A stretch of 64,000 nucleotides of DNA from Benincasa hispida (lineage: Eukaryota; Streptophyta; Magnoliopsida; Cucurbitales; Cucurbitaceae). Within the stretch, counting starts at the first letter, position 1. The number at the start of each line of letters is the position of its first letter. Where the stretch lies: assembly GCF_009727055.1 (NCBI RefSeq), contig NC_052357.1, positions 88,212,587 through 88,276,586 of the forward strand. Direction: 5' to 3'. The translations under genes were made by a program, and so were the position numbers. The notes under the pieces were generated by a model. It was not told the DNA's origin, ran no database searches, and saw nothing but the letters and a program-made list of their open reading frames with translations. Below are positions 1 through 51,412 of the stretch, piece by piece.

Positions 1-290
1 ACACGATCGCGTGATATACGATATGAAGGCGCTCGCTAAGCGATAGTTTAGGCGATGGTGCTTTTTCGTATCGTAGTCGTTTAAACGATTGTATAAGGCT
101 TGCGTTGTGCGGAGCGCACTAGACGATCATTTACCTCGGGCTCCATCGCTTAGTAAAAGTTACACGATCGTTACTAAACGATCGTTTAGCTCTGGGAGCG
201 TAGGCAAACAATAAAGCAAATTGTTTGTTCTTTCGTGTAGATGATCGCGAGGAGTTTGGTGCACGATGGTTGGAGACACACTACTTCGTC
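1..290. repeat. CGATCG-rich degenerate repeat array, left end of element A
   Basis: Variants of AAACGATCGTTTAG and ACACGATCG recur in both orientations across the first 280 bases. A related array lies in the 3' LTR at about 7252-7400. This suggests that the window opens in or close to the 5' LTR of the same family, but the flanking sequences of the two arrays do not visibly align. Confidence 0.55.
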
Positions 291-484
291 CGGACGGTTC
301 AAGACCCGGTTCGCATGTTTTGAATCAGAGATTCCTTGGTCTTGTAATAGTTAGCTTTAGTTTTGTGGATTTGAGGCAATTTTACCCGATTCATTAACAT
401 TGGTTTATTATACTTGTGCTGTATGGTGTTTATATGACAAAATGTTTGACATATAGTTTAAAAAGCCACCTTAGATTGTGCAAT

Positions 485-700
485 TATTCATGCATCATGT
501 ATTATAAATGTTATAATCTAGTATGAAGAAATTACATGAAAGCATACGCATGCATCATGAAATATAAGAGTTATATTTTGCATGCAGTGAGCATAATCAT
601 GCATCATCCTTTTATTATAAGTGTTATAGTCTAAGGGTGAATGAAAGCATGTTGTGCTTGTTTCATTGCTGTTTTTGTATAAGCGTTATATAAAAGAAGT
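485..700 (+). repeat. Degenerate tandem repeat, CATGCATCAT core
   Basis: The phrase CATGCATCAT followed by an AT-rich stretch ending near GTTATA recurs at about 489, 551 and 597, with a weaker trace near 680. The spacing is roughly 45-80 bases. It lies in the non-coding leader of element A. Confidence 0.6.
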
Positions 701-1324
701 AGCAATGAATGAACAATGCATTGAGCATGACACTTAGGTTGTTTATAATCGTTATGAATATCTTGCATGTCTTAGCTCTGCATTGTGGTTTTGATTGTTT
801 CCGTTTATAGCTGTTAAAAAGGAAATTAGAACTAAAATCGATAAGAAATAGTTACATTCAGACTTAGGGTGAACTCACGTTTTTTAAAAGGGTTTTAAAA
901 TTGGATTGAGATAGACCTAAGTTCAAATGATTCTAAAGAGTTTAGTAACCTAGATTAATCTTTTAAAATCGGTTTAATAGGATTAAATGGATTGGCATAA
1001 AAGATTAAATTTGTTTTAAATCTATCTATAAGAGACCTTTTGTCTAAGGCAGGTTCTGTCTAGGCTGGGGTTCTTAAGCTGACAGAAACAAAACACCCTT
1101 ACCTAGGAACCTACCTGGAAAGGTGAATTAGATAGATTTTCTACAAGCATGCGACAATTGATCAAAGACTCCACTAAAGAGTTTAATGGATGATGATCAA
1201 AAGTTGTTTAACTATCTAAGGTAAAGTTACTCTTGGGAAAACCTAAAAGTCACTTAGTTAAAATCCTTAGCCATGTTTTTTTCTAAGTAAACTAAACCCT
1301 AGGTTATAAAATATTCAGTGGGAG

Positions 1325-1625
1325 GAATAGATGTATCTGATATGTCTATGATTCCACTCACGTTTCTCCCTGTATGTTCACACCGTGAGATTCATGCTTG
1401 GCCTCATGGTGCTCTGGGAGCATCTCCCTTTGGATGGTGTTTGCATGAGCCAATATCAAAGTGGACGGAGAAAGTGTTTATAGTAAATGGGTGAAGGATG
1501 TGTGTCAACACGTCCTATGATCTCTATCATTGGTTCACACCATGAGATCATTCTGTACTCCCTCATGGCGCCCTGGAAGCGCCCCCCCTTCGGATGGGTT
1601 ATGTACAATTGGTCAAGATCAACGT
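1325..1625 (+). repeat. Imperfect duplication in the leader of element A
   Basis: Two copies of a roughly 110-base segment, about 1355-1480 and 1510-1615, share the phrases CACACC(G/A)TGAGAT, CTCATGG(T/C)GC(T/C)CTGG and CTTTGGATGG or CTTCGGATGG. They differ by substitutions and small indels. No coding potential is visible. The duplication probably belongs to the untranslated leader upstream of gag. Confidence 0.6.
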
Positions 1626-1918
1626 GAACTCCAGAAATGGATAAGGTTGCCTTAGGTTTTGCCCCAATCGGATTTTTTCCCTTCGAATTGGCTGCTTGGG
1701 GCGAATCTCTAGGGCCTAAAATGGTGGGTCACACTCAAGAGAGATTGTTAAGTAAGTTAATGATCTCTTGACCAAATCAATGATGGCTAGCTGTTATAGG
1801 AGCAAGAGTTGTTCTGGTATTAATGATTGGTTGAGAACTTCTCAATTCAGAGGAGGGATAATTGACCTCACTTCGGCAACTTTTGTCCTAAACCTTTGAA
1901 GCGTCATTACCAAACTAG

Positions 1919-2343
1919 ATGTCACACGGGGTTCATATTAGTTTTGCTAAAACCTTATTGGATGTTGTTTGTTCTACAACGGGTATTTTCTTAAAACCTA
2001 ACATAGGTCAATGTGTTTTTCTTTTCAGCAACTCGTTAGTATTTTCATTTAGTGCTTTTAATATGACTGATTACATACAGTGGAAAGAATCGTGTAAAAT
2101 GTATTTCGTGGCAAACAACCTTGAATTTGTCATGGTTGAGGAGTGTCTTTAAGTCTTGACCCTTGATGCACCACAAAGTGTTCGCATTGCATATGAGGTG
2201 TGGATGAAGGCTAATTCATTGGCCCGACTTCACATTTTGGCTAATATACCTGATGTTTTGGCCAAAAGGTTGAGCACATGTTCATTGCACGCGAGATCAT
2301 GGACTCGTTGCAAGATTTATTTGAACGTCAGTTCTTACTTGTT
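1919..2343 (+). pseudogene. copia gag remnant (element A)
   Basis: Gag would coat element RNA in virus-like particles. A short gag-like stretch starts near 2064 (MTDYIQWKESCKMYFVANN) and continues past a stop at about 2150 with alanine/leucine-rich helix-like sequence up to about 2340. Shortly after comes the protease region. No CX2CX4HX4C zinc knuckle is visible between gag and protease, so the 3' part of gag seems to have been deleted. The piece at 1919-2063 upstream is of doubtful coding value. Confidence 0.7.
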
Positions 2344-3900
2344 GAGCATGAAGGGATGGATGACGAAACCAGTAGTGTTAGTTGTTCTGACACTGATCCC
2401 ACTACTCTCCAAAAGAGAAGGAAAGACAGTAAATCTGATTTATTGATCTTGGAGACGTATTTGGTAGAGAATGATGATTCTGCCTGGATCTTAGATTTGG
2501 GTGCTACCAATCATGTCAGTTCCTTTTACCAAGGATTCAGTTCCTAGAAAACGTTGCCACAGAGAAAGATGACTCTTAGAGTCGGTACTAGTGAGGTCAT
2601 TTCAGTTGTTGCTATAGGTAGGCTGAAGTTATTTGTTGATAAGAAACGTTATCTATTACTGGATAATGTTTTCGTAGTTCCTCATATTAAGAGGAATTTG
2701 ATCTCGGTTTCTTGTCTCATTGAACAAGACTACACCGTCTTCTTTTCTGAGAATAAAATGTTTATTTTCAAGAATGTAATGGAGATTGGTTATGGTTCAA
2801 TGGAAAATAACTTATATGTACTAAGGCCGTTAGTCAAAAAAAGCCTTGTTTTCAAAAAAAGTCTTGTTTAACACTGAAATGTTCAGTACGACAACAACAG
2901 CTAAAAGACCAAAGGTTTCTTCTAAGGAAAACACCTATCTTTGGCATCTAAGATTAGATCACATCAACCTCAATAGCATTGAGAAGTTGATGAAAAGTGA
3001 AATTCTAAAGATTTTAGAAGAAAACTCCTTGTCGGTATGTGAATCATGTCTCGAAGGCAAGATGACCAAACGACCTTTTACTGGAAAAGGTTACAGAGCC
3101 AAGGAAGCCTTGGAGCTTGTACATTAGACCTTTGTATTCCGATGAATGTTAGAGCTCGAGGTGGGTATGAATATTTCATCTCTTTCATAGATGATTATTC
3201 AAGATTCGGGTATCTTTACCTAATGCAACGTAAGTCTGAAGCCCTTGACAAGTTAAAGGAGTATAAGGCTGAAGTTGGAAACTTTTTAGGTAAGAAGATA
3301 AAAACACTACAATCTAATTGTGGTGGAGAGTATATGGACCTCCAATTCCAGAACTATATGATAGAACATGGAATTGCATCCCAACTCTCGGCCCCTGGTA
3401 CACCTTAGCAAAATGGTGTATCGGAAAGGAGAAATAGAACCTTGTTGGACATGGTTCAGTCTATGATGAGTTATGCTCATCTTCCAAACTCGTTTTAGGG
3501 TTTTGCAGTAGAGACTGCATGCTATATCTTGAACAACATTCCCTCGAAAAGTATTTCTAAAACACCTTTTGAGTTATGGAGAGGTCGTAAAAGTAGTTTA
3601 TGCCACTTCAGAATTTTGGGTTGTCCGGCACATGTGCTCGTGACTAACCCAAAGAAGTTGAAATAACATTCGAAGGTTTGCCTCTTTGTAGGCCACCCCA
3701 AGGAAACGAGAGGTGGATACTTCTATGATCCAAGTGAGAATAAAGTGTTTGTTTCTACAAATGCTATCTTTTTGGAAGAAGACCACATCCGGTATCATAA
3801 GTTACGAAGTAAGCTCATTTTGCGTGAGATTGAGACTGCTGAAGGTTCAACAAGAGTTGTTGAACAGACCGATAGATCAACAAGAGTTGTTGAGGTCTAT
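2344..3900 (+). pseudogene. copia protease and integrase remnant (element A)
   Basis: The aspartic protease site reads DLGATNHV (about 2491-2514), where the family has D-S-G-A, so the serine is changed. The GAG-pre-integrase zinc region follows (H-H near 2942-2965, C-C near 3040-3050), then the integrase core. There the family's second catalytic aspartate, in the S-D-x-G-G-E-Y context, is replaced at about 3310-3330 (QSNCGGEYMD). In-frame stops stand at 2545-2547, 3406-3408 and 3496-3498, with further stops later. Frame changes occur near 2860 and near 3125. All this shows long inactivity. Confidence 0.88.
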
Positions 3901-4119
3901 ACATATAGTTAACCAACTCAAAAGTTGAGACTGCCTCGACGTAGTGGGAGGGTTATGAATCTACCAGATCGCTACATGGGTTTAACTGAAGCCCAAAACA
4001 TCATTTCGAATGATGAGGTCGAGGATCCGTTGTCTTTTAAGAAAACGATAAGGATGTTGACAAAGATGAATAAATTAAAGCCATAAACCAGGAAATATAG
4101 TCTATATACTTCAATAACG

Positions 4120-5600
4120 TTTAGGAGTTTGTTGATCCACTTGATGGGGTAAGACCTATTGGGTGTAAGTGGATCTATAAGTGAAAAAGAGGTGTAGATG
4201 GAAAAGTGCAAACCTTTAAGACTCGACTCGTGGCAAAGGGTTATATCCAGGTTGAAGGAGTTGACTATGAGGAAACTTTCTCACCTATTGTCATGCTCAA
4301 ATCTATTAGGATACTTCTATCCATAGCCACATTTTATGATTATGAAATATGACAAATGGACGTCAAGACTACCTTTCTTAATGGTAATCTTGAGGAGACC
4401 ATCTATATGACTCAACCAGAGGAGTTCATAGTTCCAGATCAAGAGCAAAAAGTTTGCAAGCTTAATAGATCCATTTATGGGCTGAAACAAGCGTCTCGAT
4501 CATGGAACATTAGATTTGACATTGCCGTCAAGTCGTTTGGCTTTAATCAGAACGTTGATGAGCCTTGTGTCTACAAGAAGATCATCAACAGCTCAGTAGC
4601 TTTCCTAATATTGTATGTGGATGATATCTTACTCATTGGGAATAATGTAGGGCATCTGACTGACATTTAGAAATGGCTAGCTGCTTAGTTCCAAATGAAA
4701 GATTTGGGTGAGGCACAGTATGTTCTAGGGATCCAAATCATTTGGGATCGTAAGAAAAAATGGTTAGCCCCGTCTCAGGCATCGTACATCGATCAAATGT
4801 TGATCAGGTACATGATGCAGGATTCTATGAGGGGTTTGTTACCCTTCAGGCATGAAATCATTTTGTCTAAGGATCAATGTCCTAAGGCACCTCAAGAGAT
4901 TGAGGAGATGAGTCGAATTCCCTATACTTCAGCTGTAGGAAGCTTAATGTATGCAATGTTGTGTACCAGACCCAACATTTTCTATGTAGTAGGGATTGTC
5001 TGTCGGTATCAGTTCAATCCAGGATTTGATCACTGGACGGCATTCAAGACGATCTTCAAGTATCTTCGGAGAATAAGGGACTACATGCTCATGTATGGGG
5101 ATAAGTATCTGATCCTTACAGTATATACGGACTCTGTTTTTCAGACTGATAGAGATTCTCGTAAATCGTCATCGGGGTCAGTTCTCACTCTGAATGAAGG
5201 GGTTGTAGTGTGGTGAAGCATCAAGCAAGGATGCATCATGCACTCCACTATGGAAGCCGAATACGTAGCTACTTGTGAAGCAGCTAAGAAAGCTGTTTGG
5301 CTGAGGAAATTCCTTTCAGATTTGGAAGTTGTTCCAAATATGGATTTGTCTACCACTCTGTATTGTGATAACAGTGGGACTATGGTAAATTCAAAGGAGC
5401 CTCGGAGTCATCGTCGAGGTAAGCATATAGAGCGAAAATACTACTTGATCAAGGAGATCGTGCATCGCGGTGATGTGATAGTCACGAAGATCGCATCGGA
5501 GCACAATGTTGCTGATCCCTTTACAAAGGCTCTCACGACTAAAGTGTTCAAGGGTCACCTAGAGAGTCTGGGTCTGCGAGACATGTGGCATCTTTTCTAA
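4120..5600 (+). pseudogene. copia reverse transcriptase / RNase H remnant (element A)
   Basis: One continuous reading frame runs from about 4139 to 5600, broken only by stops at 4182-4184, 4350-4352, 4668-4670, 4686-4688 and 5214-5216. The YVDD polymerase motif is intact at about 4613-4624. RNase H motifs follow, including ADPFTKAL near the end. Against the usual copia residues, four of the five stops look like C-to-T or G-to-A transitions, as expected from decay of methylated cytosines. This is the best preserved part of element A. Confidence 0.93.
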
Positions 5601-5720
5601 GGAAAGTGGGAGATGATACCTGTCTCTTATACACATCTAGATGTGTATAAGAGACAGCACCTGGAGAGTCTGGATTCGCAAGACATGGGCCATCTTATCT
5701 AAGGAAAGTGGGAGATGATA
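5556..5720 (+). repeat. Direct repeat flanking the adapter sequence
   Basis: Segments 5556-5619 and 5658-5720 are similar copies of the same element-A sequence (end of RNase H and beginning of the 3' untranslated part). They differ at several positions and are separated only by the 38-bp adapter. They look like two different genomic copies of the element joined through a library adapter, not a true tandem duplication. Confidence 0.9.
5620..5657. other. Nextera mate-pair junction adapter (assembly contamination)
   Basis: Positions 5620-5638 read CTGTCTCTTATACACATCT, the 19-bp Tn5 mosaic end. Positions 5639-5657 are its exact reverse complement. This 38-bp perfect palindrome is the known junction adapter of Nextera mate-pair libraries. 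Its occurrence between two non-identical copies of one retrotransposon segment marks a chimeric join in the assembly and not plant DNA. Confidence 0.97.
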
Positions 5721-5792
5721 CTGGGGTATGCTCTAGTTTATTTTATATTGTACATGTTTTTCTTGTATTGTACATTAGTCTCCTGAGACATT

Positions 5793-5808
5793 AGGATAAG
5801 TGGGAGAT
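5793..5808 (+). other. Polypurine tract of element A
   Basis: The purine-rich stretch AGGATAAGTGGGAGAT lies directly before the TGTTGGG start of the 3' LTR. This is the usual place for the primer of plus-strand DNA synthesis in copia elements. A similar purine run (AAGGAAAGTGGGAGATGATA) occurs twice upstream, on either side of the adapter. Confidence 0.75.
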
Positions 5809-7812
5809 TGTTGGGATTGGAGTCCTAATTCTCCCAGAGTCTCGTTATTTGTAATTATACACATTGTTTTATGAATAAAACAATTGTTATTTCATTCTGA
5901 CATTTACTCATATCCAATAAACAAAGCTCCAAGGTTATCTTATGTAAACTTAAGCATGTATATGTGATATACAAGTGGATCATGTCTTAAGTAATAACCT
6001 AAATAGGTCTGTAGTATAAGGATTAAGGTGGGATACCTAATCCTGGTGACACTACGGATACGACCCGTTTTGTAGAGGTTTGCAAGTGTTGTAAACTACT
6101 ACAGATGGTAGATTCTGACCATTCATGTGGAGATATGCGAGTAGGGGTATCCTATACAAAGAGTTTGTATAAAACCAGACCACGAGATGACTAGACTCTG
6201 TATATAACGCTGTTGATACTGGAGACTTACAACTTACCTAAATGACCCTAGGTGACACAACCTCATTCTTGAGTGTTTTGGGAACTCCTGCCTTTGAGGA
6301 TGGTCCTTTAATTAGTATGGGTGAGAGTGGCCAGATTGCCAACTCAACATGCCTACCTTTTTGGGGACTTGTCTGATTTGGGAGCTGGGAACTCAATTAC
6401 ACAAGATGGAATTCATTCCTTCCCCAAAGTAGGGGTAAGTAGATAGATTGCTCTCTTAAGGGCTGATTCCAAGGCTTGAGCATAGTGGCCACAACTTCTC
6501 TTTGGAAGAGATGACTCAGTTATAGTAGGACTATGACTTATGTTCATTAGAGGATTCAGTTGTACTTAAGAAGTTAGATATAACTACAGGGGCATAACGG
6601 TTATTCCCTGAACTGTACTTACGAGCAATCTGTGAAGGGTTGTCACACTGTTGATTGGTTAAGATGGACATATAATATATCTGTGGTAAGGAGAGTAGTG
6701 GAGTGCCTGGCAGTTAACAGATGGTGGATCCCGTGACTAAAGAGTTTAGTCAATTATTCACATACCGTTGGACTCCTTGGTAGCTCAATGGATTCAAGTT
6801 GGGGATCAATTCTTGGTGTTGATTTGAAATGTTCAAATTAACAAGAAGTAATTCGATTATATATGATATGATCGGTATGGTGTATGAGATACATCAAATG
6901 GAGGATTAATGTAAATGAGATTTACATTAAGTGCCATGAAATAGAAAAAGAGCTATGGTTTATATGTTTCATAAGATGAAATATTAAAACTATGGATTAT
7001 AAATATATTATAATAAGTTAGTTATCATTTATATTTATAATAATATTAATTGTTGGATAATTATCTCTTTTTCTCTAATAACCAATTGAGTGGGAGGTTA
7101 TTGGTGGTTTCATGGTAACCGTGAGATAAAAGGAAAAATGTTTTCCTATTTTTAGTAAGGATTTTCAAAATTGTTCATTTGAATTTTTCACTCTCGGAAA
7201 ATACTCACGGAGAAGTTGTCAAGTAAATCAGTTACTCAGCGACAGCCTGGAGTTAGCTAAACGATCGTGGAGTGTTCTTACACGATAGACACTCAGCTAG
7301 ACGATAAGCTAAACGATCGCATAGCTTTTGCTAGACGACCGCATAGCTTTTTCTAAACAATTGGGGATCGACCTATACGATAGGTTATTCCATCTCCCAC
7401 TTGCTCAATCGTTTACGATTGTGGTTCCTCCATTTTTCTGCCTCTAACCAAGTCCACACAGAGCCCACCCTCTGGATTCTCACAATGAGAATACCAAGGT
7501 AACCTTCTTGGTGGTGTCATACTCAATTCGATACTGTTGAGGTTCTGTGGAGGCCATTCGCGGTGTTCGGGGTGTTCGTGACCTTGATGTTGCTGTGATC
7601 GAGCATTCGTGATCAAGGAACTTGAAGATGAGTCTACAAAGGTTTGTTAATTCTTCCATTGATTTGTAGTAAAGGATGTTGTGATTTCTATTTTATGCAT
7701 AACCGCATGTTTCCATTCGTGATTGTAATTGTAAAGTTCATATACGATTGAAATTTGGAAAGATCCTTCCGCTGCTCATGAAAATCCTCGTGTTAGATTT
7801 CCTTCAATAACA
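5809..7812 (+). mobile_element. 3' LTR of copia element A
   Basis: It starts TGTTGGGATTGG after the purine tract and ends AATAACA, with TGTT/AACA ends as in copia LTRs. At 7813 the sequence turns abruptly into reverse transcriptase sequence of element B on the other strand. The length would be 2004 bp. A degenerate CGATCG/CGATAAG array lies at about 7252-7400. The short reading frames inside carry no recognisable protein. Confidence 0.82.
7252..7400. repeat. CGATCG-rich array in the 3' LTR
   Basis: Degenerate copies of (A/T)AAACGATCGCATAGCTTTT and CTAGACGA(T/C)(A/C)G repeat with a period of roughly 25-30 bases. They resemble the array at 1-290. Tandem motifs in LTRs can be enhancer-like, but nothing here proves that role. 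Confidence 0.6.
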
Positions 7813-8451
7813 ACCGGCTTAATCTCAAAATGATCAAATTTTCTCAGCACCTTCTCTATATATTGAGATTGAGAAAGTATGTATCCACTTAAATTTCTTG
7901 TTATTCAAATCCCAAGGATAACATCAGCAAGACCAATGTCTTTCAAATCAAAGTTGGATTTCAACATCCTTTTAGTAGAATCAATGGCACTTCTAATTGA
8001 GTCCATTATCAACATATCACCGACATACAAGCAAACAACGACACATTCTTGATCTATAATTTTAACATAGACATATTTATCACACTCATTTATCTTAAAT
8101 CCATTTGATAATATATAGTGTGATCAAACTTTTCATGTCATTGTTTGAGTGCTTGTTTCAACCCATAAAGAGACTTGACAAGTTAACAAACTTTGTCTTC
8201 AAGTCCTTTAACAACAAACCTTTCATGTTGTTCTATATAGATTTCTTCATCAAAATCTCTATTTAAAAATGTAGTTTTACATCCATTTGGTGTATTTCCA
8301 AATTTTGTAAAGCTATTATTGCAATTAACATTCTTATATATGTAATCCTCATTACTGGAGAATACGTATAAAAGAAATCTAACCGTTCTTTTTTACAAAA
8401 GCCTTTAGCTACTAAGCGAGCTTTGTACTTATCAATAGTACCACCAACCAT
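7813..8451 (-). pseudogene. copia reverse transcriptase remnant (element B)
   Basis: The best stretch begins KYKARLVAKGF near 8430 and includes QMDVKLHF near 8263-8290. Further on, the catalytic YVDD site is changed to YVGD (8016-8027), and sequence typical of the following ILSQSQYIEKVL region reaches 7813, where element A interrupts it. Several frame breaks separate these blocks. The polymerase cannot be active. Confidence 0.88.
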
Positions 8452-8639
8452 CAGCTTTCTCTTAAAAATCCATTTACTCCCAATTGGTTTACTTCTAGGA
8501 GGTAAATCAAATAGTACACAAGTATTGTTATGTAAAATGGATTCTAGCTCACTATTGATAGCTTCTTTCCAATAAGGTACATCAAAAGATGATACAACTT
8601 CTTGAAAAGTCTTGAGGCCCGCCTTCTATTATCTAAATT

Positions 8640-9525
8640 ATGAAATCATGTAAAAAAAAAAGAAAGAAAGAAAGAGTAGCTTTCTTAGCTCTTTTGCTTC
8701 TTCTAGGTTAAGATTAGTAGTCTGATCGTCTTAATCTTTTTTAAAGTTGGCTTCATTAATTTTTTTGGCACCATAATTTTGTGTCCTTCCTATTTTAAAG
8801 GAAAAATATCCTCAAAGAATTCATCCTCAATTGATTCCATTATGGTATTATTATTAATATCAGATATTTTTTATTTAATCACCGTGAATCTATAAGTAGC
8901 ACTATGCATTGCATATCTTATAAAGACACAATCAATTATCTTAGACCCAAGTTTGGTTCTTTTTGGTAAAGGAACTTGTACATTTGTCAAACACTTCCAC
9001 ACTTTCAGCATATGATATGAGTGTAACTTTCCATTCCACACTTCATAAGGTGATTTATTAGTTCTCTTGTGTGGAATTCCATTTAGTACAAAATTTGTTG
9101 TCAGCAAAGCTTCCCCCCACAAATTATGAGGTAAACCTGAACTATTCAACATGCAATTAACCATGTCCTTTAAAGTTTGGTTCTTTCTTTCAGCTATACG
9201 ATTTGTTGTGGTGTATAAGGTGTCGTATTTTGATGGATTATATCATTAATTTCACAAAGTTCACAAAGTGATGATGATTTATATTCACCACCTCTATCTA
9301 ATCTAAGCACCTTTATTTTCTTCTCAAGTTGGTTTCAACTTCTGCATTATATATTTTAAAAACATTAAAGGTTTCATCTTTACTATGTAATAAATATACG
9401 TGGTAATTTTTACTATAATCACCAATGAATATGACAAAATATCTCTTACTACCTGATGTAGCAGTACTTTTTATGTTACATACATCACTGTGGATTAAAT
9501 CAAGTAACTCATTACTTCTTTCCAC
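8640..9525 (-). pseudogene. copia integrase remnant (element B)
   Basis: 9313-9525 reads as an integrase core start (DLIHSDVCNIKSTATSGSKR then FIGDYSKNYHVYLL). 8871-9164 reads as the integrase C-terminal half (NLWGEALLTTNFVLNGIPHK, then KSPYEVWNGK). The two blocks are separated by frame breaks. A short AAAGAAAG-rich tract near 8655-8680 interrupts the part further downstream. Confidence 0.85.
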
Positions 9526-9782
9526 AGATAAAAATGACTTTCAAGTAAACTTTGATTCAAAACAAACTTCGCATTTATGTCTATCACTAATGTTAAAATT
9601 CGACAATAGTCATAAACTTACCATTCTATTTAAAGAAGATAATTGACATACCCCAATCTAGAATGTCAAATATCATAACTCAACAATATAAGCAAAAGAG
9701 TTGATATTATTATTATTCTTTGGTATTTGTGCCAGTACATTCAGTTTGAACATGTCATCACTTAGATAGCCTTTTCCCACTT

Positions 9783-10250
9783 TCATATCCCCATTTTTTT
9801 AAAAAAAATATCAGACTCGAATATAAGCTTGAGCCTATTTTTGTTAAATAGAGTTTCTGACACTATATTCTTTCGGATCTCTGGCACATGCCACATATCA
9901 TTGTAGGTAAGTATTTTTCCAGAAGCCCATGTTAGTAGGACTTTGCCTTTACCTTTCACAGAGACAGTTGAAACATTTCCCATGTATAGCTTATCGCTGT
10001 CATCTAGCTTCTCATATATAATGAACAATGACTTGTCCTTACAAATGTGCCTAGTAGCACTAGTATCAATCCACGAACCTTTGTGTTTGAAGCTATATTT
10101 ATCTAAAAAATGATGACAACCAAATCGTTATTTTCCATGGCATTAGACTGATTGTTGGAACTTTTTTCCTTCTTGCGTTTGCACATTGCAACAGTATGAC
10201 CACTCTTACCACAAACCTAGCAATTTCCTCAAATGTGCTTGCAAGCATCA
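9783..10250 (-). pseudogene. copia protease region and gag zinc knuckle (element B)
   Basis: A CCHC zinc knuckle, C-x2-C-x4-H-x4-C with the sequence VCGKSGHTVAMCK, is preserved at 10181-10223 apart from a stop between the first two cysteines. Further along the minus strand, 10028-9783 matches the protease/pre-integrase part (WHVPEIRKNIVSETLFNK). This order fits the gag-protease junction of copia elements. Confidence 0.8.
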
Positions 10251-10639
10251 TACCTTGACCTATGATTTGCATTTTACTTCTTGAAATTATGCTTCTGGGT
10301 TATTCTTTTAAGCTTCAACAATGTGAGCCTTAACTTCAACTTCTAACATAGTTTTATCTCATTTTCTGTTTTCCTTTTCTATATAGAGTTTTTCCACGAG
10401 GTTCTCCATGGATAACTCCTTTCGCTTGTGTTTGAGATAGCACTTGAGGTCCTTTCAGGAAGGAGGCAACTTTAATCAGAACAACTTGTAATAGCTCACT
10501 GATGTCTAATTCTTCACTTTGCAAATCACTGATGATAATTTACAATTCTTCCATCCCATTGACTACCAACTTGGTATTAATCATTTCATAATCTAAGAAT
10601 TTTTCCACGAAGGAATTTCTTAGTACTAGCATTTTCCAA

Positions 10640-10999
10640 CTTGTACTTCTTGTTTAATGCCTCTCACAATAGTTTTGATGTATTGTGGGCATTGCAATAA
10701 ACGTTATATAAAGTGTCCTCAAGACCACTAAGTATATAATTATGGTACAAGAAGTTCGAGTGCATCCATGCTTGTTTTGCAGCTTTCGTTTCAAGAGTTA
10801 TAGCTTCTGGTGGGGTCATTGGGCAATCTTCCTTCAAAATGTGAGCAAGATTTAGTGTGGTGAGATAAAAGATCATCTTCTGTTTTCGTCTCTTGAAGTT
10901 GTCTCCTTTGAACTTTTCTAGTTTTTAAGCATGAGGTTTGACAATGGACGATGCCATCATAGCAGATGTAGCGACATTGGTGGAGGAGTTTGCATCCAT
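10640..10999 (-). pseudogene. copia gag N-terminal remnant (element B)
   Basis: The start ATG on the minus strand is at 10999, 28 bases inside the LTR end. The frame reads MDANSSTNVATSAMM, meets a stop at about 10927, and continues with typical copia gag sequence (MIFYLTTLNLAHIL; KAAKQAWMHSNFLYHNYILS) to about 10664. Gag would form particles. The stop and the later frame breaks abolish it. Confidence 0.82.
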
Positions 11000-11026
11000 C
11001 GATTCAGATATTAATTGTCTTCAGAT

Positions 11027-11767
11027 TGTTGGGAGAAAATAGAATATATGAACTAAATACACTATAAAACTAGTTACACCTCAATTAAGAAATAGTACAC
11101 TCAATATATAATATTCAAACTCAAACTTAAGCCAAATGATATAATAAGGCTTAGATATGGAAATAATCAAAGACTTGAAAGAAGCTCGAAAACTTTGGAG
11201 ACTCAAGACATAGTCGAGGCATGCTTCTGGTAAGCGTTGTCCTGAAGATAATTATTTGCTCTGCACAGGCTGTAAACAGACTACAATGATCGCCTCAACA
11301 TGATACAACAACTAACTCCGTAGAACTGCAACCTTGAACTACTTAGATCTGGCAGAACTTTTGAATACTTACTCTAAACTCAACTTAAGAACAAAATAAA
11401 GAAAGAAAGAAATGAGATAACTCTTCAATTTGGAATGGGATGCTATAAATGAAGAACCAAGTTGCTATTTAGGCTAGCGACTCAATAACTCTCCAAATTA
11501 AAAAAAAAAAAAAAAAATACAAAAATTAAATCATTTATCAAATTTAACTCAATTGAGTTGTTACTTAACAAAAATCAAACAAAACTCATTCAAATTAAAG
11601 AAATTACAAATTTAAATATCATACATTGTGCACGAAACATCATGTTAATTTGGAGTTTCAATCCAATTTGAACATTTATAAACAACGAATTTAATCTACA
11701 CAATTAAATCCATTTTTATGTTTCAATGTTCAATTGTTTCACTTCCTTTCACTATATATATCCAACA
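11027..11767 (-). mobile_element. LTR of copia element B
   Basis: It is bounded by TGTTGG (11027) and CCAACA (11767), a perfect 6-bp inverted terminal pair, and lies directly upstream of the gag start in the minus orientation. The length would be 741 bp. Outside it comes a T-run, so no target duplication can be judged. A clear primer-binding site was not recognised next to it. Confidence 0.82.
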
Positions 11768-13955
11768 TTTTTTTTTTAATAAAATATAAAGTTTAGAGGT
11801 ATTTTATATAATTTAGCCTAAAAAGTTTGTAGTTAATATGTTTTTCATGGTTTAAATAGAAATGGAGTAAGAAATAAAATGTTTAAATGAAAATATAATA
11901 ATATGACAAATTGAGATGATGTGATAATTCATATTTAATTTTATAGATAGGGCAAAAGAGTCTTCTTTTCTGAGTCTATCCTTTCGACTACATTTACTCT
12001 AAGATAGTCTAGGGATTTCTCCTTCCTACCCTTGAAGTAGATACATATATTCTCAATAAAAAATATAAATATTTTGGATCATTGATATGAGTTCAGGTTA
12101 AAGTAAAAATGTTTGGAATTTTCATTGAAAATTTCTCAAATAGTTATCATAACTAGTATTTGTGAGACTATCTAGTTTACTCACATGACTAAAATTCGAA
12201 TAAAACTTTGACATAACTTGTTAGGTTAATGGATCGTTTATATCTCTATAATTATACGTTATCATTCATTTTGAGCCTAAGAATATAAGATCTTACCTTG
12301 GGATCTATTCTAAAAACTTCTAAGCCTAATAACTAAAGCTATATAACTCTTCCTTATAAATGTACGATCCTTTTTTCTATTTGAATTTCAATCATTCTTC
12401 TAACAGCATTAAAGTGGGATAGATTGTTCTTTCCCATGGAATCTTTAAATTTATTTCATTGGCTTAAAAAACACAACTAGGAATGGTGCATGCATCAAAA
12501 CAATGTGTCCTAATACCCATTATAAAGATTGGGATTTCTTTGTTTATTAAGTCCATTAATACCTAAAACTTTTGGAAGTTCCACCAATTACATTGGATGA
12601 AATTTAACCAATAGAAATTGTACGGACACATCATATTATAGTTTGAAGGTCTACCAACCCCAATCCCCTAGAATTTTATTCCACTATTTTTTCCATGTAG
12701 GCACTCTCCCCAACTATAAGAACCCTAAAATAAAGAAGCCCCACTTCCTTTTTAACATTGTTCTTTTTAAAACTTTACAATATCAAACTCAAAAGCTTTA
12801 CAATTCATTATGCCAGAGTGGAAAAAGTACTAATTTTTCAGTGTCATATTTGTATAATCCAAGTGTTCTTATGCAAATATTATATGAGGATATAAACCAT
12901 TATTTTTGTTTGTACTAGTAATCATTTAATGCATTTTTACTATTGATATTGGATCACTAATGGATTTTAAATCATAGAAAATCTCATTTTATTTTATTTG
13001 TGTAGATCAAGCGACATTAAAAATATTTAATGTGTTGGCATTTAGTTTTTCACTAAGGGTTAAAACTTTAAAAAGCATTATTAGAAACAAAATTGAAGAA
13101 TAGTATATACTTTTAGGATTTAAGGATAAAACAACTTTATATATAATATACTTTTTTTTTTACATGACATTTAGATTATTATTCTAGTGTCACCAGGAGA
13201 AATAAATAGATAAATATATTAGAGATTTGAGTTGTTGTCTCATCCTAAAATTTGCACTAAATGAGCAACTCTTTGTTAGTCACTAATTTAAGTTTTATGA
13301 GTGAGGATTAAAGGGTTGAAATGATCATTAGGCATTTAGATTCAAATGATAGGCTGATAATTAAAGTCAAACTCTTATTTTAAAAATGAAAAGTTCATAC
13401 CTGTTTAGGGGGGTCAAAGTCAACAATGTGTGGGACATTCCCATTGATAAAAAAAATATTACCTTTAAATAAATTTAAAAAAAAATCTAAAAAAGCAAAG
13501 AAAAAAAAGAAAAGAGAGAAACACAAAAGAATTATAGTTTAATGTATCAATTTCACATTGGCTTGTTTGAGATCCATTTATTTGGCTTGTCCTTGGGTTA
13601 CTATTTATTTCTTTTAAATAATGTGTGTGTTATTATTTGTTAAGGTTGTATAATATTATTACAAGAACATTTTCGTTTTGAGCGTAATATAGTTACTTAA
13701 CGCTTCAAAATTACTATGATTACAATAAGAAAATAGAGATTTTCAAAATTAGAAAAATAAGAGAAATTATTACACAAAATAGTAAAATTTTAATCTTTTA
13801 GAAGCTGATAAAAGTCTATCATTGATAGACGGTAATAGAAATCTATCAGTATTTTTTTTTTTTTTTTTTTGCTATTTCTATAAATATTTTGATATTTTTT
13901 CAATCTGTGAAAATTTTTCATAAAAAAACTTATTAAATGCTTATTTTTAGTACAA
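11768..13955. other. Intergenic AT-rich stretch
   Basis: No gene is recognisable. The longest frame (12643-12918) is low in complexity and has no known motif. The stretch has A- and T-runs and, near 13815-13860, a GTCTATCATTGATAGAC palindrome followed by a T-run. That palindrome belongs to a short dispersed fold-back motif also found near 22100 and 57050. Confidence 0.6.
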
Positions 13956-16879: not shown

Positions 16880-17640
16880 GTCGGAAGTGGTTATTGAAGA
16901 TAATTTTCACTAGAATTTGTAGTCGAACGTGGTTGTTGAAGTATGAAGCTGGTCGAATGAAGGTGGTATTGGAGTTGGTCATTGCAGTTTTTCGTTGGAG
17001 GTGGTTTTCGAACCCCGAAGTTGGTCCCACTAAGGTGGTCGTCGAAGTTGATCATCGAAGATGATTTTCGTCGAAGTTTGTAGTTAGGGGTGGTTGTCAA
17101 AGCCCCAAGTTAGCCACATAAAGGTGGTATTAGAGTTAGTTTTCGGAGTTGTCGTCGGAGGTGGTTGTTAAAGTCTAGAGTTGGTTGTCAGAGTTGCTCA
17201 CTTGAAGGTGGTCATCGAAGATGATTTTTTGTTGAAGTTTGTAGTTGGAGGTGGTTGTCGAAGTTGGTCATTGGAGTTTGTTGTTGACAATGGTTGCCAG
17301 AGCTTGAAATTGGTTGTCGGAGTTAGTCGAACGAAGGTGNACTAAGGTGGTCGTCGAAGTTGATCATCGAAGATGATTTTCGTCGAAGTTTGTAGTTAGG
17401 GGTGGTTGTCAAAGCCCCAAGTTAGCCACATAAAGTTGGTCATCAGAGTTGATCGCCTGAAAATTGGTGGTCGGAGTTGGTCGAACGAAGGTGGTCGTCG
17501 GAGTTGGGTCACCGAAGTTGTCATCAGAGGTAGTTGCCGGAGCTCGAAATTGTTCATCGGAGTTGGTCGTCCATAGGTGGTCATTGTCAGGGTCTGGAGT
17601 TGTCATCGGAGGCGGTTGTTAGAGCCCAAAATTGGTTCCC
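16880..17640 (+). repeat. Degenerate GTCG/GAAGTTGGTC tandem region
   Basis: Units resembling GGTGGTCGTCGGAGTTGGTC repeat many times with variation (GGTGGTTGTCGAAG, GGTCATCGGAG and similar). Frames across it stay open on both strands because stop codons are rare in the unit, so they are not evidence of a gene. The region looks like a decayed minisatellite. It contains the gap at 17340. Confidence 0.75.
17029..17435 (+). repeat. Exact 95-bp duplication around a one-N gap
   Basis: 17029-17123 and 17341-17435 are identical. The single N at 17340 stands immediately before the second copy. An exact copy beside a placeholder gap points to an unmerged contig overlap more than to biology. The true locus may be shorter by about 312 bases. 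Confidence 0.8.
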
Positions 17641-32194: not shown

Positions 32195-35100
32195 TTACAG
32201 GACCTCCCACTCAGAGTCAGATACATAACTAGTTGATGCATTCTCCTTCTCCAACTTCTGTGAATTGTTTGTACTGAATTCCAGATCAGTATCTCCATAC
32301 CAGATTGCTAATTGTTCGTACTCCTTTGCCAACCTCTTTTTGGAAGAAAAAGCATCCTGGATTCTCTTCTATTTTTTAGAAAGTAAAGAATAGATAAGAA
32401 ACAAAAGGTAGAATATTTTAGCACCTTGGATATTTGTGGACATGGGAGAAAAATAGACAAGTAAAAGTAGTGGCATTTTATTAGACAAACTTTAGGCTCT
32501 TACCTACCAGTAAAAATGAACCTACTACATTTTCATTTTAGTTATAAACTCTTTCGTTCTGTTTTTTTTTTTAAAAAAAAAAAAGCTGGAACAGTTAGTG
32601 TTAAACATTATCATCTTAAAGAGAAACAGGTGTTTCCGGGTCTTAAATGTCTTCATCAAAACTTAAAATTGCTAGAGGAGACTCATATATGTAACTTTAG
32701 ATGTTATATGAAATGAAAAGTTAGTTGAGGGAGAGAGACCTTGTAAGAACGGAGCTTTTGGGTTCTGCGAGAGACAGCATGGAGAGTTTTATAGTCAACA
32801 ACGTCACTTTCATCTTCAAGGGTCACTTTATGTCCCAAATCCACCGTTTCCATTTTAGAATAGTCACTGGAATCATGTGGACAACCTGAGAAATGTTTTT
32901 AAGATAATTGTTTAATTCCTAATGAGAAAGGGAAAGGATGGGGAAAAAATTAAAAGATAAAATATTTTCTTGATAGACTCGTTTCTCACTTCATAAGTTT
33001 CAAAGAAAACAATATAAACCGTTCCCAATAGTAAACAGCTAATCTCTTTTAGTTCAAAAAATATACTCTCATAGGTTGACTTTGATTTAAGCTAATCATT
33101 TCCTAAACAGACGAGCAACATTTCCATCTACAATGAAAATAGCCTACATATTGAAGTACCACCTTGTCATGATAATTATAGATAACACTAGAAATTTGAA
33201 AGAATGGTATGAAAACAAGCTTAGGGACACACCTCCTTCAGTAGATAAACTTGGAATCCCAGAACTAGTAGATTTGGAAAACTCACCCTGGCTACGAGTA
33301 TAGAATTTAGGAAGAAATGCAGCATCATTGGCTCTTGAAGCATGAATCTCAGCTGAGTCATGAATTGTTTAAGAAAATCAGAAGAAAGCACAAATACTTA
33401 TCCTAGGATAGAAGATAAGAGTATATACCTAATGGTTCCAATGATGATAAGGAGCTTTTAGAGGAGACAAATTTCATCTTCGAAGCCTTATTTCCATAAG
33501 ATGGACTAGCGATCACTTCGAATGATGGACGAGATTCACATTCAATGTATGCATTCTGTTCAACAGGTTTTTCATGAATGACAGTGTTATTAGAAAGGTT
33601 GCTGACCAAACTTCTGAAAGCAGAAAAAGAAACCTTTGCTAGGGGTTTCAAAGAGGAGACTGGCTCTGTCTCTTCCACAGTCTCCCCACCAGTCAAAACT
33701 AAAGAAGTAGCATCTACAGCATTAGAGGAATAGTCAACTCCATTTTCCAAGTACTTTGAAGTTGTCTCCGTCCTTGGTGATAAGCCAACTGAATTGTTTA
33801 CCACGATGCCGGAAGCTTGTTTTACATTATGGATGGATTTAACATCTGCACAATGAATCGAAGTTTTCTGTGGATTTCCATTTGAAGTCACAATATCCCC
33901 TTCACTTTCATTACCATAACTGCACAAAGTTTCCTTAATTGACTCTTCGCCACAATGCAAAGTTAACTCAGTTGATAATTCTAAATTGGCCTGTTCTTTA
34001 CAACTTGCATCTGATGCTTTATCTATTAAAGCATTACTATTCTTCCCAAAAATAACCTCACTCTCCAACTTTAGAAAAGAACCATTTGAAACTGCAGAAA
34101 CTTCTTCATTTTTATATTCTATGCTGCTTGATGTGCATCTTGGCCGGTTCATTAAAGGATAATTTGCATAATGCTCCAACTCCAAGATGGTATCATTTTT
34201 TAAGCTTTCATTGAGGTATTTAACTGTCAAGGCATCATCATTCTTTCTAGCAAGTATCTCAGTCGCCAACTGCTGATGGTTTCTATCAAAAACCATAATA
34301 GCTTCTTTGTTGGTGAAACTAATTCCATCTGCATGCCTGGGCAGATTTAACAAATAACTGTTAGGACCATCGTCAAAGATAGCTTCTTCGTTGTTTACCA
34401 AGATTCTGGAAGCTCCTTCTTCATTATGGATGGATTCAACATCTGCACGATGAATCGAAGTTTCCTGTGGATTTCCATTTGAGGTCACAATGTCCCCTTC
34501 ACATTCATCACCATAACTGCACAAAGTTTCCATAATTGACTCTTCGCCACAATGCAAAGTTAACTCAGTTGATAATTCTAAATTGGCCTGTTTTTTACAA
34601 CTTGCATCTGATGCTTTATCTATTAAAGCTTTACTAGTCTTCCCAAAAATAACCTCACTCTCCAACTTTAGAAAAGAACCATTTGAAACTGAAGAAACTT
34701 CTTCATTTTTATATTCCATGCTGCTTGATGTGCATCTTGGCCGGTTCTTTAAAGTATAATTTGCATCATGCTCCAACTCCAAGATGGTATCATTTTTTAA
34801 ACTTTCATTGGAGTATTTAACCGTCAAGGCATCATCATTCTTTCTAGTAAGTATCTCTGTCTCCAACTCCAGATCGTTTCTATCAAAGACCATAATAGCT
34901 TCTTCGTCAGTGAAGCTAACTCCATTTGCATGCCTGGGCAGATTTAACAAATAACTGTTAGGATCATCCTCAAAGATAGCATTCTTCACAGGACTCTTAT
35001 TGAAGTCTTTATCCATCATGGCATGACCAATTCTGGCTGAAAGCACCACAGACTCGAAAAATAAATTAGAATCATCAGCTTCTTTACTTACAAAGTTTGT

Positions 35101-36314
35101 CCCACTCCATACATGACTAAGATGGTTTTCATTCAAATGATCAGCAGTGTTAGGTTCCATGGTGACAACCTTCTTTAGAAACTCATCTGAGTTCTCATTT
35201 GATAAGTCGCCGTCATTCTTCCACAAGAATCTGGAAGATTCTATCGGTAAATGAGAATTATCCAAAATCAGTATTGGTTCTTCATTTGTAACTTTAACTT
35301 CACAAGATGTACAATTAGCCATATGCTTCAAAGGATCACTAGCATTGAACTTCATGGTGATATCCTCTTCAGAACTCTTACTTTCATCTTTATCTGTTAA
35401 AAGCTCATCATCGTTCCCTACTAAAAGTACATCATCCTCCAATTTCATATCAAAGCCATCGCAAACCGAAGAAGCTCTTTTATTAGTATCATTAATTTCA
35501 GTACTTACATTGCTCAATGAACAACTCAAAGGATCACTAGCATCTGACTCCATGAGGGTAAGCTTATCAGTCAACGAGCCATCATTTTTCTCTGAAAGTA
35601 GTTCACTAACGGCATTTTCTTTCATGTTCTCATATAAGTCTTTATCTAACAAGACATCATCATTCTTTTCCAAAGGTAAATCAGCATTCAACTCTAGAGA
35701 AGAATGATTAGGAACTTGAGCAACTTCTTCATTTACAAAGGGAACTATACAAGATGCTTGACTTCGGTTATCTATTTGATCAATAGTTCTAATATCATGC
35801 CCCACAGATGATTTATTAAAAACATTACTTGCAGCTTTTCCTTCATTGTGTGACAGTGACCTGAAATATGCATTAATTGGAACATGCCCCCTCTGAACCG
35901 GTTCTTTAGCTTCATATTTCATGGGATCCCCCATAGGTGGAAGCAAACCTTGAACAACATCAGAGTATAATCTCTTCACATTTGCACTTGCTGAACTAAC
36001 CTGGTTTTCAACATATTTAACCTTATCCTGTGTATAAGATCAGTTTAAAAGTTATTACTTACTACACAAAGAAGGAATTAAACCTCAATGACAAGTTACT
36101 CATTTGCATGATGAACAATCGAGTTGAGGCACACAATCAACCCAATAAGAAAGCCACCACGTGAAACCTTTGACGAAATATTAGATCACTAAATGTAAAA
36201 AAGAAAAAGAAATGAGGATACCTGATTTATAATATTATCCACTTCCTGGCAAACTGCTTCAAACTTTTGGAACATGTTTCCAACCCATGATATACCTTTA
36301 TGTTTTAAATCCAT
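32195..36314 (-). CDS. Plant protein of unknown function, five coding exons, about 1043 residues
   Basis: Exons on the minus strand are 36314-36222, 36027-33429, 33352-33233, 32885-32740 and 32368-32195. All introns are GT-AG, the phases agree, and the coding length is 3132 bases with stop. The start MDLKHKGISWVGNMFQKFEA opens exon 1. Two short N-terminal segments (MDLK..WVGNMFQKFEAVCQEVDNII and VKYVENQV..VKRLYSDVVQGLLPP) and the C-terminal end (KRLAKEYEQLAIWYGDTD then SDSEWEVL*) look like conserved anchors. I recall similar ends in uncharacterised land-plant proteins but cannot name the gene. The long middle is acidic, serine-rich, probably disordered, and contains a recent 199-residue tandem duplication. 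No signal peptide or membrane segment is seen. The function is unknown. Exon 3 has an unused strong donor (CAGGTGAGT, 3' of RSQ) that would shift the frame. Confidence 0.82.
33790..34985 (-). repeat. 597-bp in-frame tandem duplication within the large exon
   Basis: Two consecutive copies are offset by exactly 597 bases: the phrase ATCTGCAC at 33844 recurs at 34441, and GCATGCCTGG at 34331 recurs at 34928. They encode about 199 residues each (for example PNSYLLNLPRHA and LELSTELTLHCGEESI occur twice). The copies are roughly nine-tenths alike by eye and the frame stays open. Confidence 0.93.
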
Positions 36315-39321: not shown

Positions 39322-39327
39322 NNNNNN
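39322..39327. other. Assembly gap (six N)
   Basis: Six unknown bases stand before CCAAAAAAAAAAAAAAAAC, so the gap is at a homopolymer. The true length is not known. Confidence 0.95.
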
Positions 39328-49463: not shown

Positions 49464-51412
49464 TCACTTGAATCCAATGAATTGCAGTGTGAAAGAAAAT
49501 GAAATCAGAAGCTTTGGGGGTTTATAAAAATAATCCCAAAAAATGGGGGAAGGCCAAGGCAGAGTGGGTCGTGACTCAAAAATGGGGGAAAGCCCGAGTG
49601 GGGAAAGAGAAAGAGAAAAAGGGGCGAGAAGAAACGGTTTTGGTGAGAGAAAAGGCGAGTACTTGTAGATGGGTTTTGCCATTTGTTGTACTTGGGGCAA
49701 CTGTTCCCTTTCTCAAAGCTATCTCGCTTTCTTGGCTCGGTGACCAACCCTGAAGAACTTGCTGGAGATGATGAGGATGGTGATGCGAAGGGAAAACGCT
49801 GTTCTGATTTTCCTTTGGACTTTTCTTCACATCGGTGCCATACCCATTACCATTTTCAAATCTCTTAACCCTAATTCATCTTGTGATTCTTGATTCCACT
49901 TGCATGTTGATGGCGAATGCACTGCCTAGTTGAGGTGTTTTTTTTTTTTTTTTTGTTGTGGGTTTGTTGTTTTTTTCTTTTTTTCCTTTTTTCTTTGTTG
50001 TTTGCCATTTCGACTTAGCTAGAAATGGATGAATGTGGTTTATATGTGCTGTTTGATGGAGTTGGATTGAGGGGAGAGATGAGATTCATGCGGTTTCTGA
50101 CAATTGGCCTTGTGAGATTTCTGCAAATGGGTATGAATAGGTTTTTTTAGAATTTTGTTTTCTTCTTCTCGTTTGTCGGATTTCTGGAAACTGGTAATGT
50201 AGTTGAATGGTTTATGAGTTAATTGCTTGGATTTAGAATAGAGAATTTGATACAAGGACCTTTTGGAAAAGGGTATCTCATGCATGTTTGTTTCGTCTAA
50301 TCATCTATTCTATTTGAAATGCCGAGTGTCAAAGAATGTAGGGATAGACAGAAACTGCTTGAGGGGGTTGAGCAACCGCTTTCATGGCTCAGTTCTTTGC
50401 TTTTGGCTCCAGGGAAGAGAAATAGGGGCGGGTAGTTTAAGAAGTTAGCCTTTCTGTGGACAATTAAAATGAGAATGTAGAAACGCCATTTCTTAACAAA
50501 CTTATGAGATTTATGGACGAAGAAAGCAGGAGTCGCCCCTTCCACACATTTTTCTCTCCTTTTAGCTTACCTGGTCATTTGTTTTAAACAATAGGAAGAA
50601 GAAAATCCGAAGAATTATTTTCCAAAAAGTAAGGGCAAAGCATGCGAGAGAATTATTTCTAACTTGGCAGTCATTCTTTAATGTTTTTATCTCATCAATG
50701 TTCAAAACAAGCAACATGGATTGTCGGATCGTGGATGTAATTGACGAAAGATTTACGAAAATGTCAAAGAATATGAAAGTGCGGGTATCAATGACTTTCT
50801 TCACTTGCTTTATTTGAATTTTATTGAAGTGAAATGAAATTGGTGCTAACGGTATATAGAGTTTGAAGTAGTTTAAAATTTCAATTCTCTTCAAGGCTTT
50901 AGTGGCGTAGGAGTTAAGAGAAATGTTTAGCATGTCAAATTCCTTTATGCCTATCTTCTCTGCATATACATACGTACCACTCATTTTATTTATAGGACTC
51001 CATCTTTCTTATTACTTAATAATTAATGAACAATAAATAATTGGTACTAGAACATTTTCTCTTGCAGATTTGAGAGTACTTTCTCAGATGTGTTCCTTGT
51101 GCTATCCTAAATTATAGGAGCGTGTAGCACATTTTATTACTTTCTACCAGTGGCTACTCAACATAACCCTCCTTGTATAATATCATCATTGGCAATTGCT
51201 TTCACTATCTTTTATCCACATTCAATGTCTGATGTTATGTTATTACTTGTGTTCTTTCGTTTGGAGCTGATTTAAGTAAAAATTCTTATTTTTCTAAATG
51301 CTCAAAAGTATGGTTTGATTTCTTATGTTACAGGTCCTGCCTTCTGAATTAGTGTATGCATAGGGTGGATAAGTAAGGGTTGGTAGCTTAAGAAGCTTAC
51401 TGATCCATCGTC
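49464..51412 (+). other. 5' UTR and leader intron of the IDM1-like gene
   Basis: A GC-richer block at about 49500-49940 probably holds the first, non-coding exon. A donor TTGAG|GTGTTT near 49936 and a clear acceptor (TTATGTTACAG|GTCC, about 51333) bound an intron of about 1.4 kb. Frames in the first block overlap on both strands and do not resemble known proteins. The promoter and transcription start are not fixed. Confidence 0.5.

Follow-up and report, generated by a model that had tools for sequence, protein, structure and literature searches.

A Tn5 mosaic-end dimer between two versions of a retrotransposon segment in the wax gourd reference assembly

Introduction

How does a 38-bp palindrome built of two Tn5 mosaic ends come to stand inside a plant retrotransposon? 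The palindrome lies in a stretch of 64,000 nucleotides, called the window hereafter (C9:88212587-88276586), of an assembly of 912,946,352 bases in 1,791 contigs which agrees with that of line B227 of wax gourd (Benincasa hispida). The B227 assembly is described as 912.95 Mb long with a contig N50 of 68.5 kb (PMC9905507); to build it, ALLPATHS-LG was run on paired-end and five mate-pair libraries (2 and 8 kb), gaps were filled with PBJelly and a genetic map was used (PMC6856369). Kit and trimming are left unstated in the main text of PMC6856369, in which 'Nextera', 'adapter', 'trimm', 'contamina' and 'transposase' have 0 occurrences, and no report of adapter contamination in wax gourd was found in the literature searched.

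The mosaic end (ME) is a hyperactive derivative that replaces the natural Tn5 ends (PMC4248319, PMC6201506, PMC3046479), and the ME oligonucleotide is printed in PMC3046479. During mate-pair preparation, each end of a multi-kilobase fragment receives a 19-bp adaptor from the transposase, and the two adaptors are joined head to head when the fragment is circularised; of the resulting 38 bases, NextClip searches for 34 (PMC3928519). Trimming of this junction adapter has been described for other genomes (PMC10998396, PMC6289116). An earlier note on the window, made from the letters alone, had taken the palindrome for such an adapter. Here we follow up this reading in the window, across the assembly and in public records.

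Results

A mosaic-end dimer at 5620-5657 of the window

The features on which the analysis rests are the following.

2548..5600, forward strand: coding pieces of a Ty1/copia-type element (element A), with the frame broken in several places; Pfam families on 4/9 pieces, open frames
5556..5619, forward strand: left copy of a 64-bp segment of the retrotransposon, where the coding region ends and the 3' untranslated part begins; 56/64 identical to 5658-5721, abuts the adapter
5620..5638, forward strand: first 19 bp of the junction adapter, a Tn5 mosaic end; exact match
5639..5657, reverse strand: last 19 bp of the junction adapter, the Tn5 mosaic end as its reverse complement; exact match
5658..5721, forward strand: right copy of the 64-bp segment, presumably from another family copy; abuts the adapter, single in 38/38 other family loci

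The window carries at 5620-5657 an exact CTGTCTCTTATACACATCT followed by its reverse complement, which makes a Tn5 mosaic-end dimer of 38 bp, and the boundaries of the palindrome fall exactly on 5620 and 5657. The claim of the earlier note that a 19-bp mosaic end and its exact reverse complement stand back to back at this place thus holds to the base. The two halves are the sole matches to the 19-mer in the window when up to 3 mismatches are allowed, for 0.03 expected from shuffles. By base composition, chance would yield 7.8e-7 exact 19-mers and 5.6e-18 exact 38-mers in 64 kb. The identification as a Nextera mate-pair junction adapter, also made by the earlier note, agrees with the adapter described or printed in PMC3928519, PMC7357533 and PMC3046479. 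Compared by length and build, the dimer is the same as the junction adapter that NextClip handles, namely a 19-bp adaptor and its reverse complement, 38 bases in all, arising from tagmentation and circularisation; but that adapter is known in reads, whereas ours lies inside a finished assembly (PMC3928519). The two mosaic ends are 0 bp apart, leaving no cargo DNA. No 9-bp target duplication is present at the site (left AGATGATAC, right CACCTGGAG), so that it does not stem from one insertion event.

An open frame runs through the adapter (5622-5657) and translates as VSYTHLDVYKRQ; this peptide, which might serve to mark contaminated protein models, was not found in the literature searched.

The dimer recurs across the whole assembly

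The earlier note had proposed to search the whole assembly for the 38-mer and to regard the contamination as general if many unrelated loci carried it. With up to 2 mismatches allowed, the 38-mer was found at 10,759 places at unrelated loci, about one per 85 kb, while the reversed pattern gave 0 matches in the same assembly. The exact 19-mer alone matched 10,766 times in forward and 10,764 times in reverse orientation (reversed control 0); 8/100 among the matches listed were without a partner, so single mosaic ends also occur. Adapter contamination is therefore assembly-wide. Since the adapter recurs some ten thousand times in the assembly, the spot in the window reflects faulty assembly rather than biology. 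We found no counter-evidence to an adapter origin, and the 38 bases are almost certainly an artefact, a junction adapter that a Tn5-based (Nextera-type) mate-pair library left behind in the assembly.

One locus (C1:2861251-2861789) holds four adapters with three identical 129-bp units between them, as an adapter loop would give.

The adapter flanks carry most of the Tn5 target preference

The Tn5 target consensus is AGNTYWRANCT, and transposase libraries are said to resemble it weakly (PMC3046479). The first nine bases outward from the adapter were compiled for 93 distinct flanks of the wax gourd genome and for 266 flanks from public records. The wax gourd set showed G1 at 43%, Y4 at 79%, W5 at 84%, R6 at 76% and C9 at 40%, and the public set 46%, 70%, 77%, 73% and 42% at the same positions. 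Tested against the Tn5 cut site (GNTYWRANC), the flanks as a set fit at positions 1, 4, 5, 6 and 9, the two flanks of one site being unable to show a preference. The consensus T3 and A7 were not enriched in either set, and weaker departures persisted at position 11 (and at 12 in the wax gourd set). On the strength of this preference, the ends next to the adapter are read as made by transposase in the tube. The identical 38-mer is also printed for a biotin ring adapter used on circles of about 4 kb (PMC7357533); there the fragments are ultrasound-sheared and ligated, whereas the Tn5 preference of the present flanks speaks for tagmentation.

A rival reading is a real mini-Tn5 devoid of cargo and inserted in the plant DNA, and the two ends are indeed oriented as in a Tn5 transposon. 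Such an element would however have inserted without its 9-bp target duplication, would carry no cargo, would occupy 10,759 places of the genome and would be flanked by a 64-bp repeat where a target duplication is expected. A real Tn5 insertion was rejected for the first three of these reasons, and we regard it as extremely improbable.

Two versions of one retrotransposon segment flank the adapter

Positions 5556-5619 and 5658-5721 represent one 64-bp segment present twice, each copy abutting the adapter. Their 8 differences consist of 5 transitions and 3 transversions, in keeping with the statement of the earlier note that the same retrotransposon segment occurs on both sides in two slightly different versions. 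As the copies differ at 8/64 positions, we rejected the idea of a self-ligated 64-bp fragment that had been read twice around. We compared both strands of 38 other loci of the family (37 distinct copies, L180 and L193 being the same). The segment is present once in each of the 38, and none has the adapter; the parts that flank the segment are exactly 64 bases apart in 33/38 loci and 63, 63, 62, 49 and 44 bases apart in the rest. Compared with the layout of these copies, the arrangement at this place is 102 bp longer. Among the 38 loci, the left version prevails at 6/8 differing positions and the right version at the other two, the first and the last. The right segment thus looks like the more diverged copy, and the two sides may belong to different elements.

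The flanks form a direct repeat, as would a natural tandem duplication of the 3' end of the element around a chance palindrome. Against this stand the number of exact 38-mers expected by base composition, given above, and the 38/38 other family loci in which the segment is single and the 38-mer lacking. The latter count led us to reject a natural tandem repeat, whose probability we put at practically nil. The sequences to the left and right of the adapter rather derive, probably, from different genomic copies of the family; this is what the earlier note had proposed, and the 8 flank differences together with the 38 single-segment loci support it, the joining step itself being deduced.

The element into which the adapter is set has nine coding pieces between 2548 and 5600. 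Pol_BBD, rve, SH3_retrovirus and RVT_2 were found on separate pieces between 2548 and 4667 (4/9 pieces), and no Pfam family on the other 5/9. The integrase (rve, 3043-3405) precedes the reverse transcriptase (RVT_2, 4353-4667), which is the Ty1/copia order. The piece at 5217-5597 has 937 relatives, and the named ones among the 120 matches listed are from plants, mostly Cucumis melo and one Acer. The family is abundant: the 300 bases to the left of the adapter gave 7,694 first-look candidates and the 300 bases to the right 5,691, of which 40 were scored on each side. A search for a pair of LTRs (1-5600 against 5701-12000) returned no direct repeat and one inverted match of 149 bp at 66%, and the 5' end of element A may lie outside the window or have been lost. 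Further downstream, a third copy of GTGGGAGA followed by a TGTTGGG-like sequence (5800..5816, forward strand) is possibly a polypurine tract and the start of a 3' LTR. The earlier note warned that any claim about element A's 3' end across the adapter is unsafe, and the warning was justified: reads would be needed before the 3' part past 5620 is assigned to the same copy, and 5556-5721 should be given no biological interpretation.

Direct repeats abut the adapter at other sites as well

We then considered the layout of other adapter sites, namely the first 50 of the 10,759 (40 loci in the first 6.1 Mb of C1), which are not a random sample. Abutting repeats were scored either by an ungapped measure (85% identity, repeat touching the adapter) or by a BLAST rule (direct repeat at most 12 bases from the adapter on both sides). 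By the ungapped measure, an abutting direct repeat of at least 8 bp was found at 21/50 sites and one of at least 17 bp at 20/50, 9 of these being exact. The same measure applied to 7,891 control positions, each at least 600 bases from any adapter, gave 26 repeats of at least 8 bp and 8 of at least 17 bp; of these 8, 6 come from 56.7-57.3 kb in the window and 2 from another locus (L199). By the BLAST rule, 18/50 sites had an abutting direct repeat and 23/50 unrelated flanks, while 6/50 had direct repeats that did not abut on both sides and 3/50 only inverted similarity further out. The repeat in the window (64 bp, 87.5%) belongs to the abutting class.

The exact 38-mer is also present in public records: at least 120 bacterial stretches from at least 19 assemblies, 7 viral stretches on 6 contigs, and 5 plasmid records. 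Neither 50,697 phage records nor the complete E. coli genomes contained it. Out of 154 public junctions, 7 with a flank below 60 bp were left out of the counts; all 7 lie at most 35 bases from a contig end, which indicates that contigs do end in adapter. Among the remaining 147, an abutting repeat of at least 8 bp occurred at 32 and one of at least 17 bp at 28, and 119 had no abutting repeat of the latter length. The control for these junctions, which includes adapter neighbourhoods, gave a repeat at 7/1,260 positions of the same loci (6 of at least 17 bp). Some of these 147 bacterial and viral junctions share with the window a layout in which the adapter stands between two copies of one sequence (X-adapter-X). 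They differ from it in that 18 of the 28 repeats of at least 17 bp are exact, whereas the copies in the window differ at 8/64 positions.

The adapter dimer is also found in records titled chromosome or complete sequence (L025, L101, L115, L120), as well as in the five plasmid records.

Two routes from the library to such a junction have to be weighed, both of which start from the same adapter. In the first, a single junction read from a true mate-pair circle, whose fragment ended in two copies of the element, would have been built into the assembly. Junction reads are what a mate-pair library contains, the family is abundant, as seen from the candidates counted for either 300-base flank, and the unrelated flanks at 23/50 wax gourd sites are as expected of fragment ends kilobases apart. 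This route nevertheless demands that both ends lie no more than 64 bp from one and the same point in the element. Moreover, abutting repeats recur at 20/50 sites against 8/7,891 controls, a recurrence that bridging of overlapping ends explains more simply. A single junction read is accordingly an unlikely source of the window junction, albeit one to be kept in mind. In the second route, ends of different family copies would have been joined through the adapter, and we favour this bridging as the probable origin of the junction. Overlap bridging is not the sole route to junctions of this kind, given the 23/50 wax gourd sites with unrelated flanks and the 119/147 public junctions with no abutting repeat of at least 17 bp; these wax gourd sites may stem from genuine junction reads of the mate-pair library or from the joining of ends that have no relation to each other.

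Discussion

We propose that bridging proceeded as follows. Some mate-pair junction reads would have been left unclipped, so that a read or contig end leaving one copy of the retrotransposon ended in adapter, while adapter stood at the start of another, derived from a different family copy. Assembly or gap filling would then have bridged the two ends through the 38-bp palindrome that they shared and not through a true overlap; the software step behind the bridge would be a contig or a gap-filling step. The product would be an X-adapter-X' arrangement that is 102 bases too long and has a chimeric 3' end.

The roughly 10,700 junctions, about one per 85 kb, are spaced on the order of the contig N50 (68.5 kb), which suggests that many contig joins are mediated by the adapter. 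We therefore lean towards the view that the B227 reference is partly stitched through untrimmed adapter palindromes, a good part of these junctions bringing false duplications or chimeric retrotransposons. Biologically the junction means nothing; it is a data-quality matter for the users of a crop reference. Repeat annotation, the dating of elements, calls of tandem duplications, primer design and gene models are possibly wrong at the places where they cross an adapter. As the adapter frame is open, its peptide could end up in protein predictions. Screening for the X-adapter-X signature is easy.

Other spots of the window were recorded along the way. A single N at 17340 is followed by a stretch (17341-17450) that repeats 17029-17137 at 97% and is minisatellite-like; it is perhaps an unmerged contig overlap. 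Another single N, at 56773, stands in an AT-rich array between exact 90-bp copies (56683-56772 and 56774-56863) and looks like a contig-overlap join marked by one N or a collapse of the array. Six N occupy 39322-39327, and no related flanks were found around them. Inside an open frame on the reverse strand (33403-36039), positions 33794-34690 hold a 300-bp direct repeat at 94% with a spacing of 597 bp, which could be an internal protein repeat. Finally, a fragment of a host gene at 51404-54400 is 98% identical to Benincasa hispida 'increased DNA methylation 1'.
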